From Corynebacterium mycetoides (GTDB lineage Bacteria; Actinomycetota; Actinomycetes; Mycobacteriales; Mycobacteriaceae): a stretch of DNA of 64,000 nt. The position numbers were made by a program, and so were the translations under genes. Positions 2,739-50,723 of the stretch are shown here, in pieces. The notes under the pieces are model-generated. The model worked only from the letters and a program-made list of their open reading frames with translations. It was not told where the DNA came from and searched no databases. Position 1 is the stretch's first letter. The number at the start of each line of letters is the position of its first letter. The stretch covers positions 1,798,001 to 1,862,000 of the forward strand of contig NZ_LT629700.1 of assembly GCF_900103625.1 (NCBI RefSeq), given 5' to 3'.

Positions 2739-3115
2739 AAGATTTTCTAACGTGGCCGTTTAGGATCCTCGGGTTCTGGGCCTGGTACGCAAAAGAGTTC
2801 GCAGTGGCGAATGTTGCGGTGATTAAGGACGTGGTCACCGTAGGCAACGACGCGACGCCCTCCATCGTGAGGCTTGAGTGCTTAAGCTTCACGGAAGGGT
2901 TCTACACCCTGCTGGCGTCGCTGATCACGATCACACCCGGCACGCTCGTAGTGGGCGCCGGCGACACAACAAGCAAGGGGGTGCGCGTGATGTATGTTCA
3001 TGCGTTGTACTACACCGACATGGATGAACTGCGCGCGGACCTTCGCGAAATGGAGGAGCGCATGCTCAAGGGCCTGATGCTTCGCCCCAAGCTGAACAAG
3101 GAGGCCACGTTGTGA
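2735..3115 (+). CDS. mnhE: Na+/H+ antiporter subunit E
   Basis: 126 residues, shorter than the roughly 158 of Bacillus MrpE. The diagnostic MnhE core is present: a membrane segment followed by SLITITPGTLVVG, then a soluble tail with VRVMYVHALYY and a helix rich in Glu, Arg and Met. It starts with ATG overlapping the mnhD stop and ends overlapping the GTG of mnhF. Confidence 0.92.
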   Translation: MKDFLTWPFRILGFWAWYAKEFAVANVAVIKDVVTVGNDATPSIVRLECLSFTEGFYTLLASLITITPGTLVVGAGDTTSKGVRVMYVHALYYTDMDELRADLREMEERMLKGLMLRPKLNKEATL

Positions 3116-3369
3116 TAGCGGTTGAAATTGCGATCGTGATTTTCGGGTTGTGCGCCATGCCAGCCGGCTACAGGATGCTCGTCGGCCCGTCACGGGCGGA
3201 TCGGGCGACGGCAGCGGACTTAATGGTGTTCTTGCTCATCGGCATGGTTGCCTTGATTGGTTTCCGCAACAGCTCCGGCTACACCCTCGACATTGTCCTG
3301 GTTGCGGCGCTCGTGGCATTTTTGTCTACGGTGTCGTACGCTCGCGTGCTGCTGCGGGGTGATCGCTGA
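3112..3369 (+). CDS. mnhF: Na+/H+ antiporter subunit F
   Basis: 85 residues, three membrane helices, with the MnhF signature RMLVGPSRADRATAADL near the first loop. The start is GTG, chosen because it gives GTGA overlap with mnhE and the family-typical length. The stop and the mnhG start share one base (TGATG). Confidence 0.92.
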   Translation: MIAVEIAIVIFGLCAMPAGYRMLVGPSRADRATAADLMVFLLIGMVALIGFRNSSGYTLDIVLVAALVAFLSTVSYARVLLRGDR

Positions 3370-39023: not shown

Positions 39024-39736
39024 GGCAGCCTCCGTGCGACAATGCCGTCGGCCAGGATGTTGACGCCGTTGATCAGCGACTGCCCCTTGCTCATCGAGTA
39101 CTCCGTGTACAGGATGTCCACCGGCTCCTCGGCCACGCGCCAGCCCTGCGTGTCAATCATGGACACGATTTCGGAGGCGTGCGACATCCCGTTCATGCGG
39201 ATGTTCATTTCGTCGGCGACCTTCTTGTTAAAGGCGCGCAGCCCGTTGTGGGCGTCCGACAGGCCCAGGCGTCGTGTGCGCGGCGACAGCAGGACAACAG
39301 TCTTGAGCACCACTCGTTTGATCCAGGGGACCTGGGTGTTGTCCTGGCCGGCGAAGCGGGTCCCCACGACAATGTCGATGGGTTCCTCGCGCAGCCGGCG
39401 AACCATCTTGACCACGTCTTTTACCTGGTGCTGGCCGTCGGCGTCGAAGGTGACGAAGTACTTCGCGCCGGGCTGCGCGCGGGCGTACTCCACACCCGTC
39501 TGGATGGCCGCGCCCTGGCCAAGGTTCACGGGGTGGTTGACAAGGTGCGCGCCAGCGGCGCGGATCGCGGCGGCGGAGTTGTCCTCGGAGCCGTCGTTGA
39601 CGGCGACGACGTTGGGAAACGTCTCGCGCGCGTGCTCGATGACCTCCTGGATGACCGGCCCCTCGTTGTAGCAGGGGATGACCAACCAGGTGTCAGAGAA
39701 GTCCCGGTTCTCCGGGTGGTCCTGGATATCGTCCAT
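39020..39736 (-). CDS. GT2 family glycosyltransferase
   Basis: 238 residues from the ATG at 39736; a GTG four codons upstream is possible. DPM1/Dol-P-like fold: VIPCYNEG, VNDGSEDNS, DADGQHQ and a conserved GTRF. Its kind transfers a nucleotide sugar to polyprenyl phosphate. Part of the rhamnose cluster. Confidence 0.86.
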   Translation of the reverse strand: MDDIQDHPENRDFSDTWLVIPCYNEGPVIQEVIEHARETFPNVVAVNDGSEDNSAAAIRAAGAHLVNHPVNLGQGAAIQTGVEYARAQPGAKYFVTFDADGQHQVKDVVKMVRRLREEPIDIVVGTRFAGQDNTQVPWIKRVVLKTVVLLSPRTRRLGLSDAHNGLRAFNKKVADEMNIRMNGMSHASEIVSMIDTQGWRVAEEPVDILYTEYSMSKGQSLINGVNILADGIVARRLP

Positions 39737-39752
39737 AGCACCGCCCACGTTA

Positions 39753-40547
39753 CTAGCTGCGGTGGAAAAGTTGCGCGTACACGCGGGTGAGCAGCGCGGT
39801 TGGCAGCATGCGGTAGGCGGTGCGCGCCGCCAGGTTGAACCGGGCGCGCCACGGGCCGATGAGCCCGTAGGAGACCAGCCTGGCCTGCATGTCTTTTTCC
39901 GCGGCGAACATTCCCTTGCCCGTGCGCCGCGCGAACTGCGCCGGGTTGACCCGGAAGTACGTCAGGGGCTCGGGCAGGTTGTGCAGGCGCCACCCACCCG
40001 CGGCCAGGCGCGCGTAGAGGTCGTAATCCTCCATGAGGTGCACGTCCGTGTACCCGCCGACTTCCTTGACCGCCGCGGTGCGCAGCATGACGGAGGGGTT
40101 GTTGATGGGGGAGTTGATGCGCAGGTAGTCGTGCGGGTCTTCGGGGAGCCTGCGGATCGCCCCGCCGTCACCGGGTGCGTCGGCGAACTCCTCGACGGCC
40201 GTGCCCACCGCACCCGTCTCGGGGTGCGCCTCCAGGTAGGCCACCTGGGCCGCGAAGCGCTCCGGTTTGGCCACGTCGTCGCTGTCCAGCCGCGCCACAT
40301 ACGTCGACGTGATCGTGTCCAACCCCGCTTGCGAGGCCAGCCCGGAGCCGACGTTGCGCTCGAGCGTGACCACGCGCACCCCGCGCGCCGCAGCTACCTG
40401 GCGCACCTCGTCGGAGACGGCCCCGTCGAAAACGAGGACGATCTCGTCCGGGGGGAGGGTCTGGGCGAGAAGAGAGCCAAGAGCGAGGTCCAGCTCGTCA
40501 GCGCCGGTTCGGTGATACGCGGTGACGAGGGCAGAGAGGCTGGGCAT
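39753..40547 (-). CDS. GT2 family glycosyltransferase, rhamnosyltransferase-like
   Basis: 264 residues. LVTAYHRTG, VFDGAVSDEV, LDSDDVAKPERF (DxD), INSPINNPSVMLR and MEDYDLYARLA are the family A motifs. Directly after rmlA, so rhamnose or galactofuranose is a plausible donor; not proven. Confidence 0.85.
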   Translation of the reverse strand: MPSLSALVTAYHRTGADELDLALGSLLAQTLPPDEIVLVFDGAVSDEVRQVAAARGVRVVTLERNVGSGLASQAGLDTITSTYVARLDSDDVAKPERFAAQVAYLEAHPETGAVGTAVEEFADAPGDGGAIRRLPEDPHDYLRINSPINNPSVMLRTAAVKEVGGYTDVHLMEDYDLYARLAAGGWRLHNLPEPLTYFRVNPAQFARRTGKGMFAAEKDMQARLVSYGLIGPWRARFNLAARTAYRMLPTALLTRVYAQLFHRS

Positions 40548-46386: not shown

Positions 46387-47538
46387 CTACATGCCGAAGG
46401 CGGGCGCGATGGTGGTGTACCAGGACTTCTCAATGTCGTCGCGCCAGTACGGCCACGAGTGGGTGCCGACGTTGCGGAACTCGTAGGTGGCCGGAATGCC
46501 CTCATGCTCGAGCTTGGCGCGCAGGTCATGGGAGCACTTGTTGATGGCGGCCTCAATCACGCCGCCCTCGACCTGCAGCTGGGTGGAGGCGACGCTGGCG
46601 ACGACCTCGGGGGCGCCCTGCCCGACCAGGAAGCCGACCTGGTCGGGGCGGCCCGCCAGGCCGGTGGCAGTGGAGATGTAGAGCGCGGTGCCGCGCAGCT
46701 TGTCTGCGTTGAGCAGGGCGTCGTTGTAGCGGTTGTACTCGCTGCCCATCGGGCCCCACATCATCTCCGGGGTCACGGTGCGGAAGTCCCCGGTTCCGGA
46801 GGCGCGGTTGACGGTCAGGCGCGCGAAGTTGTAGGCGTGCAGCGACGAGGTGGCGGCGCAGCCGGAGAAGGAGGCCGCCGCGTCGTAGAAGCCCGGGTTG
46901 TGCGTGGGCAGGACCAGCGAGGTGGTGCCGGACATGGAGAAGCCGACGATCGCCCGGCGGTCATCCGCGTCGAGGGTCTCCTCGATCGGGCCCGGGAGCT
47001 CCTTGGTCAGGAACGTCTCCCACTTCTGGGGGCCGGTGATGTAGGGGGACCGGACGTTGTCATCGACCCAGTCGGTGTAGTACGTGAACGCGCCGGCCTG
47101 CGGGATGACGACGTTGACGCCCTTGCCCTGGAAGAACTCGCGGGTGTTGTACATCTTCAGCCAGTCGGCGTCCTGCTCCGCGCCGCCGGCGCCGTTGAGC
47201 AGGTAGATGATCGGTGCGCCGGAGACGCGCTGGCCTTCTGCGTCGGTGGCGGGGATGACGGCGATGGGGATGTCGCGGTCCATCGAGGGCGAGTAGACCT
47301 TGTAGGACAGCACGTTGTGGTGGTCCACCTGCTGGGTCCACGACTGGGGCTTGTTTCCGGACACGGTCATGGTGGGATTCGCCTTGGCGTCCCACTCTTT
47401 GACTACTCCCACGGCCGCGGAGCCTGCCACCTGCTCGGCCGGGACAGCCCCGGCGTGGGCGGACGGGGCCAGCGGTGCGGCACCGAGGGTGATCGACAGC
47501 GCCGCGAGGGCGGCGAGTACGGAGCGCTTGGGGTTCAT
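46387..47538 (-). CDS. cmt: Mycolyltransferase (antigen 85-type)
   Basis: 383 residues with a signal peptide (about 1-29, ending AHA). Esterase D/Ag85 fold: YLLNGAGGAEQ, nucleophile in VGFSMSG (S201), ASFSGC and catalytic His in VGTHSWPYW. Transfers mycolic acid between trehalose monomycolate and trehalose or arabinogalactan, outside the membrane. A second copy lies 400 bases upstream. Confidence 0.93.
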   Translation of the reverse strand: MNPKRSVLAALAALSITLGAAPLAPSAHAGAVPAEQVAGSAAVGVVKEWDAKANPTMTVSGNKPQSWTQQVDHHNVLSYKVYSPSMDRDIPIAVIPATDAEGQRVSGAPIIYLLNGAGGAEQDADWLKMYNTREFFQGKGVNVVIPQAGAFTYYTDWVDDNVRSPYITGPQKWETFLTKELPGPIEETLDADDRRAIVGFSMSGTTSLVLPTHNPGFYDAAASFSGCAATSSLHAYNFARLTVNRASGTGDFRTVTPEMMWGPMGSEYNRYNDALLNADKLRGTALYISTATGLAGRPDQVGFLVGQGAPEVVASVASTQLQVEGGVIEAAINKCSHDLRAKLEHEGIPATYEFRNVGTHSWPYWRDDIEKSWYTTIAPAFGM

Positions 47539-47719
47539 GGGAATCCTTAAACTTATCTCGAGCGTGGGGTGGACAGGGTCTATCGGGTCTATCGGTGATA
47601 ACTTAGCCCACGTTTCATTGGAATTCGAACGGAAATCGCCCGGCGTTGTTACTAAAGTGAAAATTGTTGCTTACCGACGCCTCCGTCGCCGCGCATTCCC
47701 AGCCGCGGTCGGGCGCCGA

Positions 47720-47739
47720 TTGCACACGTGTGTAACAAT
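47720..47739 (+). promoter_or_regulatory. Near-palindrome and -10 box upstream of the 36-residue peptide
   Basis: TTGCACACGTGTGTAA (47720-47735) is palindromic except for one pair and overlaps TAACAAT (47733-47739), a good -10 box. The transcript would start near 47746, with a leader of about 60 bases. The rest of 47539-47807 shows no other feature. Regulator unknown. Confidence 0.45.
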
Positions 47740-47807
47740 GAGCCCGATCTGAGCGACTCCACTTCCAGGAACCGCACCGTCTAGCGAACTAGCAAAGGAA
47801 ACACAGC

Positions 47808-47918
47808 ATGAACATCATCGAAGCACTCCAGCTCCAGATCAACGAGTTCCTCGGCCAGCTGATCCACTTCGGATCCTCCGCCTCCTCCAACCTGTCTCTG
47901 AGCCTGGGCCTCTTCTAA
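47808..47918 (+). CDS. 36-residue amphipathic peptide, candidate PorA/PorH-like mycomembrane protein
   Basis: MNIIEALQLQINEFLGQLIH is an amphipathic helix (hydrophobic Ile, Leu, Phe face; Gln, Glu, Asn, His face), then FGSSASSNLSLSLGLF, a Ser-rich end with alternating Leu/Ser. AAAGGAA precedes the ATG at 7 bases. No signal peptide and no cysteine, as in the corynebacterial porins PorA and PorH, which are 45-57 residues long, lack signal peptides and are mycoloylated. It lies between two mycolyltransferase genes on the opposite strand. It has no obvious sequence identity to PorA/PorH that I can see, so the class is inferred from size, composition and place. Confidence 0.65.
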   Translation: MNIIEALQLQINEFLGQLIHFGSSASSNLSLSLGLF

Positions 47919-47919
47919 G

Positions 47920-47932
47920 CCCCGCTTCGGGG
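47920..47932 (+). terminator. Short hairpin after the 36-residue gene
   Basis: CCCCG-CTT-CGGGG, just after the stop. No T-run follows, so termination is uncertain. Confidence 0.3.
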
Positions 47933-47945
47933 TCTAGAGCCCGGA

Positions 47946-49163
47946 TTACAGCCCGAGCGCGGGCTTGAGCGTGGTGTCCCAGGACTTCTTCAGATCCTCG
48001 CGCCACCCTGGCCAGGAGTGGGTGCCCGTCGGGCGCAGCTCCCAGTGGGCGCCGATGCCCGCCCGGTCCAGCTTGGCCTTCAGATCGTGGGTGCAGGCGT
48101 TGACCGCGGCCTCGATCACGCCGCCCTCCACTTGCAGGGTCGCCGCATTCTGCGACGCGGCCGCAGGGCTAAACCCTCTCGCCTGCAAATACCCCGCCAT
48201 GTCCGTCTCCGCGGCCAGGCCGGTCGCAGAGGACACATACAATTCAGTGCCGCGTAGGCGCTCCGCGTTCACCAGTGCGTCGTTGTACCGGTTGTAGGTG
48301 GAGCCCATCGGCCCCCAGATGTTCTCGGGCGTCAGCTCCCCCGAGCCGCGGTTAACCGTCAGGTGCGCGTACGCCCAGGGCAACGGCGTGGACGTGGCGG
48401 CGCACCCGGAGAAGGAGCCGACAGCCGCGTACTGGCCCTGGTAGTGCTGGGCCAGGAGCAGGGCGGACGTCGCCGACATGGAGAACCCGACCACGGCGCG
48501 CGTGCCGTTTGCCTGGGCGTAGGGCTCGATGGAGGCGGGGAGTTCCTCGCCGAGGAAGGTCGACCACATCTGCTTGCCGTGGTAGTAGCTGTTGGTCTCC
48601 GGCACCGATAGCCAGTTGACGTAGTAGGAGAACGCGCCCTCCATCGGGATGACCACGTTGACGTTTTCGTCCTTGAACACCTCCCACACCGTCTGGCCCG
48701 CTTGCGCGATCCAGTCTGTGTTCTGCTCTGAGCCGCCCGCGCCGTTGAGCAGGTACACGGTGGGCGCACCTGCGGTGGCCGCGGGGCGGAACGCGACCGG
48801 GATGTCGCGCTCCATGGACGCCGAGTGCACGGTGAGGGGGACAAAGCCGTAGCGCGGCGCGCTGCTGAACCACAGCTGATTGCCGCCGGTGTAGGTCGCG
48901 GGAGCGGTGAGCAGGGGCTTGACCTCGCCGGGAAGAGCCGCGGGCGGCTCCGGCATGTTGTCTGCTGCGGCCGCGTCGTCAGCCTCCGCGGGGAGATTGA
49001 GCAAGATCGCGGCGTCGGAGGGCGTCGCGTCGGCGAATTCGGGCGCCACTGCACCGTCGGCCGTCTCGGCCGAGATCGGGCTGGTTGTCAACGCGGACGG
49101 GACGGCCACTGCCGTCAGGGCGGTCAGCGCCGCCGCCGCGACGCTGGTGCGGGAGAGCTTCAC
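47946..49163 (-). CDS. cmt: Mycolyltransferase (antigen 85-type), second copy
   Basis: 405 residues with a signal peptide (about 1-32). An acidic, Ala/Asp-rich linker (about 33-75) sets it apart from the first copy. YLLNGAGGSEQ, nucleophile in VGFSMSA (S228) and His in GTHSWPGW show the active site. The two enzymes are clearly paralogues and differ mostly in the N-terminal 90 residues, which suggests different acceptors or location. Confidence 0.93.
   Translation of the reverse strand: MKLSRTSVAAAALTALTAVAVPSALTTSPISAETADGAVAPEFADATPSDAAILLNLPAEADDAAAADNMPEPPAALPGEVKPLLTAPATYTGGNQLWFSSAPRYGFVPLTVHSASMERDIPVAFRPAATAGAPTVYLLNGAGGSEQNTDWIAQAGQTVWEVFKDENVNVVIPMEGAFSYYVNWLSVPETNSYYHGKQMWSTFLGEELPASIEPYAQANGTRAVVGFSMSATSALLLAQHYQGQYAAVGSFSGCAATSTPLPWAYAHLTVNRGSGELTPENIWGPMGSTYNRYNDALVNAERLRGTELYVSSATGLAAETDMAGYLQARGFSPAAASQNAATLQVEGGVIEAAVNACTHDLKAKLDRAGIGAHWELRPTGTHSWPGWREDLKKSWDTTLKPALGL

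Positions 49164-49310: not shown

Positions 49311-50723
<1,413 letters not shown>

Follow-up and report, generated by a model that had tools for sequence, protein, structure and literature searches.

A conserved 36-codon gene next to Cmt1-type mycoloyltransferase genes of Corynebacterium encodes a candidate leaderless peptide of the mycomembrane

In Corynebacterium mycetoides, an open reading frame of 36 codons lies between two mycoloyltransferase genes, which raises the question of whether so short a frame is a gene at all and, if it is, whether its product belongs with the small mycomembrane peptides that carry no signal sequence. The latter had been proposed in an initial annotation, which likened the product to the corynebacterial porins PorA and PorH. 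The window, that is, the whole stretch of 64,000 nucleotides that was analysed, comes from a genome of 2.27 Mb present as a single contig, and the locus has the following features.

46387..47538, minus strand: cmtA, divergent mycoloyltransferase gene (349 bits to C. glutamicum Cmt1)
47723..47732, no strand assigned: palindrome CACACGTGTG, overlapping the first base of the -35 element
47732..47737, plus strand: sigma-D-like -35 element GTAACA, spacing-specific in 65 of 128 family upstream regions
47754..47757, plus strand: -10 element CGAC with an N16 spacer to the -35 element; CGAC in 13 of 65 family sites
47794..47799, plus strand: ribosome-binding site AAAGGA, 8 nt 5' of the ATG, with a Shine-Dalgarno-like match in relatives
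47808..47918, plus strand: peptide gene, 36 codons, MNIIEALQLQINEFLGQLIHFGSSASSNLSLSLGLF; genus-wide family (alignments A1 and A2) under purifying selection
47905..47943, plus strand: stem-loop around the peptide stop codon, between the peptide gene and convergent cmtB (fold -20.9 kcal/mol)
47946..49163, minus strand: cmtB, second mycoloyltransferase gene, convergent with the peptide gene (308 bits to Cmt1)
49311..50723, plus strand: lpd, dihydrolipoamide dehydrogenase gene, the usual downstream neighbour (Pfam pyridine nucleotide-disulphide oxidoreductase); the name is taken from the C. glutamicum literature

The frame, its translation into 36 amino acids and its ribosome site are as originally described, and both flanking genes are indeed of the Cmt/antigen-85 type, the closest solved relative of both being Cmt1 of C. 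glutamicum. With Cmt1 as query, cmtA is the better match in the window (331 versus 291 bits), and the best of the six matches of cmtA in genome G065, which we take to be C. glutamicum ATCC 13032, is Cmt1. ProtX is present in G065 as well, and the Cmt1 match in this genome reaches 810 bits. Transcription of the peptide gene is predicted to start near 47763. The stem-loop around the stop codon (z -2.0, with 7 of 200 shuffled sequences folding equally well) is a possible terminator without a U-tract; no T-tract terminator was found in a scan of the peptide gene region of the window.

That the 36-codon frame is a real gene is essentially certain. When searched at E<=0.01 with a profile of 94 family sequences (A2), 190 of the 242 Corynebacterium genomes contain the peptide, as do 185 of the 235 good assemblies; a profile of 27 sequences (A1) matches 211 of the 242 genomes at the loose cutoff of E<=1. 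Single-sequence searches give matches in 174 of the 242 genomes at E<=10 and, counted by hand, in about 150 at E<=0.01. Four other genomes encode copies that are 78-86% identical to the peptide of the window, and the 190 positive genomes have one match each, with the exception of G042 and G199. Among 401 genomes of the family, some of which belong to the same genus, nothing convincing was found outside Corynebacterium. The matches from outside the genus were weak and short and were rejected, and the best of them (5.9e-4) carries an in-frame stop codon.

For comparison in greater depth, 141 loci were used, which are the places around the best matches listed and not all 190 positives (144 minus three same-genome duplicates). 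A codon test on the 113 of 141 copies that are gap-free, 36 codons long and free of N yielded pN<pS for 736 of the 757 pairs and, among independent (non-overlapping) pairs, for 44 of 46, with a median dN/dS of 0.31 over 748 usable pairs and the highest variability at third codon positions. All 141 copies have a start codon (134 ATG, six GTG, one TTG), and 137 have a run of at least four bases matching the ribosome site, a number that is raised by the fact that the start was picked partly by that match. In one locus (L142, genome G113), the frame enters a stretch of N and its end is unreadable; it is included in the locus counts and left out of the codon test. The initial annotation had made its proposal dependent on amino-acid conservation and on frames uninterrupted in close relatives: the former extends over 190 of 242 genomes under purifying selection, and stop codons are absent from the close relatives. 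Its observation holds, and the case is stronger than it stated.

The gene is absent from the family libraries that were searched. None of the 94 members has a Pfam match at E<=0.01, the peptide of the window has no NCBIfam match at E<=1, and positions 47500-48000 of the window contain no Rfam match at the gathering threshold. A protein-database search with a natural relative of 41 amino acids returned two unnamed matches among four candidates, so that the annotation status of the family is partly known from this one relative. In the open-licence literature, taken as papers without their supplements, no paper was recognised as describing the peptide, and three fragments of the C. glutamicum peptide had no match in the texts.

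The position between two mycoloyltransferase genes, on which the initial annotation laid weight, is true of the window but is not the rule. A reverse-strand Cmt gene follows the peptide gene in 38 of 141 loci, in four at a distance of more than 1.4 kb, whereas a reverse-strand Cmt gene upstream, divergent from the peptide gene, occurs in 128 of 141 loci (139 genomes). The downstream neighbour on the plus strand is lpd in 114 of 141 loci; the early loci were fetched with flanks of 1.5 kb, so an absent lpd may simply be out of range there. Cmt genes were called by a similarity of at least 60 bits, which covers the paralogues alike. Sixteen genomes have no Cmt match that reaches 1e-40, or none at all; the peptide is found in none of these but in 190 of the 226 others, a comparison made by hand and confounded by shared ancestry. 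Of the 52 peptide-negative genomes, three were inspected (G060, G126 and G137; loci L149, L150 and L151), and all three have a Cmt gene adjacent to lpd with no detectable peptide in between; the peptide seems to have been lost in some species. About 24 kb separate the peptide gene from cmt1 in C. glutamicum, and the order of M1 peptidase gene and cmtA known from the window was not found beside cmt1 in the stretch fetched there.

The upstream region contains a conserved promoter of another type than expected. A -10 box had been assigned to the gene initially; a simple consensus scan of 47538-47960 found no sigma-70-type promoter, and the signal that is conserved is the sigma-D-like promoter at 47732-47757. 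The upstream site described as near-palindromic is even a perfect palindrome, but it is present in one of 128 upstream regions, the window's own included, and is not conserved. Published sigma-D elements comprise a -35 GTAAC(A/G) and a -10 GAT, and the rsdA promoter reads GTAAC-15 nt-CTCGAT (PMC6338062); the spacing upstream of the peptide gene is the same as in this published promoter. In the 128 upstream regions, obtained by dereplicating the 141 loci by upstream similarity, the relaxed pattern GTAAC[A/G]-N16-CG[ATC][TCA], which was chosen after reading these regions, has a match on the peptide strand in 65, with a mean of 0.75 in shuffled sequences. At other spacings between 8 and 24 it occurs in 0-6 of the 128, and at N16 on the opposite strand, toward the Cmt gene, in 21. 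Its density is 2.03 sites per kb upstream of the peptide gene versus 0.018 per kb elsewhere in the loci. Among patterns tried earlier, GTAAC-N14-18-CG[AT]T matches 27 of 128 regions (shuffle mean 1.2); the published form taken strictly, GTAAC[AG]-N13-17-[CG]GAT, matches five (shuffle mean 0.5, largest 3). Even the relaxed site is absent from 63 of 128 regions. In the window itself, the pattern of the copy at 47732-47757 is matched twice over 64 kb, against 0.62 chance matches, so that this copy alone proves nothing. The second match is GTAACG-N16-CGA at 39729-39753 on the minus strand.

The -10 element in the 65 sites is CGTT in 25, CGCT in 19, CGAC in 13, CGAA in six, and CGAT and CGTA in one each. 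Thus, the -35 element and the spacing are those of sigma-D, but the -10 element is mostly not the published GAT. Since GTT is the published -10 motif of sigma-H (PMC6338062), control may be mixed; nevertheless, the promoter P2lpd of C. glutamicum, which has a GTT at -10, has been shown to depend on sigma-D (PMC6338062). According to the same work, cmt1, cmt2 and rsdA are the only genes whose sigma-D promoters are conserved across species, and its promoter comparison, as far as available to us, mentions no peptide gene. The sigma-D regulon is reported to include cmt1, porH and protX (PMC11175481). From its promoter sequence, the peptide gene is likely to be under sigma-D or sigma-D-like control, with sigma-H possibly sharing in it, and it seems to be subject to the same envelope-stress control as the adjoining Cmt gene. 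Many species (e.g. L061, L112 and L131) have another conserved element, TGTCATAAT, farther upstream than the sigma-D-like promoter, which is perhaps a housekeeping promoter or a regulator site; CATAAT is found in 49 of the 128 regions compared with 5.0 in shuffled ones.

The C. glutamicum copy links the family to a transcript that has already been described. The ortholog, MPIHEQIIFFINEILGYGLHAGSSAFSNLSHSIGLF, is encoded at 3001-3111 of the stretch fetched from this genome (L129), and lpd starts at 3275. Its calculated average [M+Na] mass is 3983.5 when unmodified and 4462.0 when a C32:0 mycolate is attached; applied to ProtX, this calculation yields 3896.3, against a reported 3897.0. Transcription from P2lpd has been mapped to a start 360 nt ahead of the lpd start codon, and the promoter was assigned to lpd, with a potential small RNA suggested as a further product (PMC6338062). 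By coordinate arithmetic, this start falls at about position 2915, the peptide ATG follows about 86 nt further on, and CTAACG-N16-CGTT is found at 2880-2905. By these coordinates, the P2lpd transcript, published as the product of an lpd promoter or as an RNA in passages that name no peptide, most likely carries the peptide frame. In C. glutamicum R, lpd has been reported not to depend on sigma-D (PMC6338062).

The peptide is predicted to be an amphipathic alpha-helix, in agreement with what the initial annotation had read from the residues. AlphaFold2 models a single helix from residue 3 to residue 32 (mean pLDDT 97.3 in the best and 88.5 in the worst of five models). Over 94 members, both column conservation (permutation p 5e-5) and hydrophobicity (p 0.002) have their largest moment at 100 degrees per residue. 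The conserved residues form a near-invariant polar strip, E5-N12-G16-H20-S23-S27, in which N12 is found in 94%, G16 in 100%, H20 in 96%, S23 in 100% and S27 in 93% of members, and E5 in 84% (otherwise mostly Asp). S24 (98%) and S26 (83%) complete an SSxSS motif present in 77 of 94 members, an SS pair being present in 93, and the near-invariant pair S23/S24 is embedded in a Gly/Ala/Ser context. Strip and hydrophobic face are 114 degrees apart and not opposite, and such a strip would also suit contact with a protein in place of a pore. The C-terminal residue is hydrophobic in 92 of 94 members, Lys and Arg are absent from 79, and Cys is absent from all. The family members are 33-41 amino acids long, and inspection revealed neither a Sec or Tat signal sequence nor a charged, signal-peptide-like N-terminus; the lack of a signal peptide had been noted at the outset. 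A Foldseek search against the PDB gave no matches, which is expected for a lone helix and uninformative.

These properties recall several peptides of the corynebacterial envelope. C. glutamicum is not known to have a protein O-mycoloyltransferase other than Cmt1, also named MytC, which acts on Ser and less frequently on Thr in surroundings of Gly, Ala and Ser without a strict consensus (PMC11066868). Mycoloylated residues have been reported at S37 of ProtX, S15 of PorA and S56 of PorH, all of which lack signal sequences (PMC5310785, PMC11927696). The passages and the part of Table 1 of the published O-mycoloylome that were covered (PMC11066868) do not name the peptide. Like ProtX of C. glutamicum (cg2875, 38 amino acids), it is short, lacks a signal sequence and has a Ser-Ser pair (PMC5310785). 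ProtX is a member of the sigma-D regulon and a substrate of Cmt1/MytC (PMC11175481, PMC11927696), a likeness that the peptide may share in part through its sigma-D-like promoter. In contrast to the peptide, ProtX has its modified Ser at the C-terminus and is encoded at a different locus, and no homology between the two is detectable (hhalign probability 0.4 over 5 columns). PorA and PorH of C. glutamicum and PorACj of C. jeikeium are likewise short, at 40 to about 57 amino acids, and have no presequence (PMC3792995). PorA and PorH are encoded between groEL2 and ppk2, whereas the peptide is found at cmt1-lpd; channel activity has been shown for PorA, PorH and PorACj and is putative for the peptide. 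Short PorA and PorH fragments were absent from the stretch fetched for them (L152). Since ProtX is reported to lack homology to PorA and PorH (PMC5310785), this kind of peptide is defined by its mode of life and not by homology; even for PorACj, homology to other porins was called "very poor" by its authors (PMC3792995). The likeness to PorA and PorH proposed initially stands with respect to short length, missing leader, predicted helix, Ser motif, linkage to Cmt genes and, in part, promoter, but it extends neither to the porA/porH locus nor to homology with ProtX. Because the peptide has no recognisable relation to ProtX and is not encoded at the porA/porH locus, that it works like these peptides is better supported than that it is a member of them.

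The explanation that we favour is that of a leaderless, single-helix peptide of the envelope, which would be transcribed from its own sigma-D-like, envelope-stress promoter divergently from cmt1 and exported by whichever route PorA, PorH and ProtX take. Cmt1 would esterify mycolate to S23 and/or S24, the helix would then lodge in the mycomembrane, and the polar strip of E5, N12, G16, H20, S23 and S27 could pack against its own copies or against another mycomembrane protein, giving a small oligomer or a structural or assembly component. Judged from its sequence, the product is probably a small outer-envelope peptide. For O-mycoloylation by Cmt1 at S23/S24, which is argued by analogy, the chances are about even, and pore formation is something that we infer from the same analogy. 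The explanation as a whole may equally be right or wrong: against it stand the upstream regions without even the relaxed promoter (63 of 128), the mostly non-GAT -10 elements, the missing homology to ProtX, the published limitation of conserved sigma-D promoters to cmt1, cmt2 and rsdA, the independence of lpd from sigma-D in C. glutamicum R, the angle between strip and hydrophobic face, the retention of Cmt gene and lpd without the peptide in G060, G126 and G137, and the distance between cmt1 and the peptide gene in C. glutamicum.

The main rival, in itself rather unlikely, is that the peptide, instead of being a bulk constituent of the mycomembrane, assists Cmt1 or the assembly of mycomembrane proteins as a partner; its helix would dock via the polar strip on Cmt1 or on the substrates of Cmt1 and help in the selection, delivery or assembly of the latter. 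Such a function agrees with the linkage to a Cmt gene (128 of 141 loci) and with the sigma-D-like promoter, as well as with the spread of the peptide, which exceeds that of ProtX (about 150 versus 7 of 242 genomes in single-sequence searches at E<=0.01). In addition, further assembly factors for mycomembrane proteins are expected by the authors of one study in the sigma-D regulon (PMC11175481), and adapter proteins for Cmt1 have been raised by those of another (PMC11066868). However, purified MytC suffices to mycoloylate PorA in vitro (PMC11927696), which argues against an obligatory adapter, and the C. glutamicum gene is about 24 kb from cmt1. Both readings could be combined if the peptide were the missing assembly factor of the sigma-D regulon, linked to Cmt1, itself mycoloylated, and helping Cmt1 to choose or deliver leaderless substrates or scaffolding their insertion; this appears quite unlikely. 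If true, a core component of the corynebacterial envelope would have been hidden by its small size. It would bear on the route of leaderless peptides to the mycomembrane and on the choice of substrates by Cmt1, questions that have been tied to unknown sigma-D members or adapters in the published discussions available to us (PMC11175481, PMC11066868). Most of the genus has conserved the candidate, the model strain C. glutamicum ATCC 13032 included, and it comes with exact coordinates, predicted masses and candidate sites; it also offers an alternative reading of the published "lpd" sigma-D promoter.

This promoter, assigned as it is to lpd (PMC6338062), would also suit regulation of lpd by a translated leader peptide or an attenuator, and where no Cmt gene lies downstream, the peptide gene is mostly 24-280 nt upstream of lpd on the same strand. 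A regulatory leader is nevertheless very improbable, as cmtB intervenes in reverse orientation in the window and a reverse Cmt gene lies downstream in 38 of 141 loci, the amino acids are conserved with helical periodicity, copies exist away from lpd (L099, L102), and no Rfam match was found. The potential small RNA suggested for the same promoter (PMC6338062), in which the frame would be incidental, is hardly credible given pN<pS in 44 of 46 independent pairs with third positions most variable, the start codon in all 141 copies, the ribosome-site match in 137, even if the start was picked partly by it, and the lack of an Rfam family. A hydrophobic type I toxin, bacteriocin or secreted signal peptide would be equally small, hydrophobic and helical by prediction, yet it is a far-fetched reading for a peptide with almost no basic residues, one match per genome except in G042 and G199 among 190, and a fixed place in most loci.

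Some loci deviate from the common arrangement. L099 (G057) and L102 (G042) each have the peptide gene at another place, near genes that by eye encode a trypsin-like protease and a TypA-like GTPase, and G042 additionally retains a copy near lpd. A C. glutamicum chassis strain carries the deletion cg0414-cg0440 (PMC7533341), which may or may not include the peptide frame. In L111 (G038), a gene that resembles a transposase by eye lies between the peptide gene and a co-oriented Cmt gene, and this locus is rearranged.
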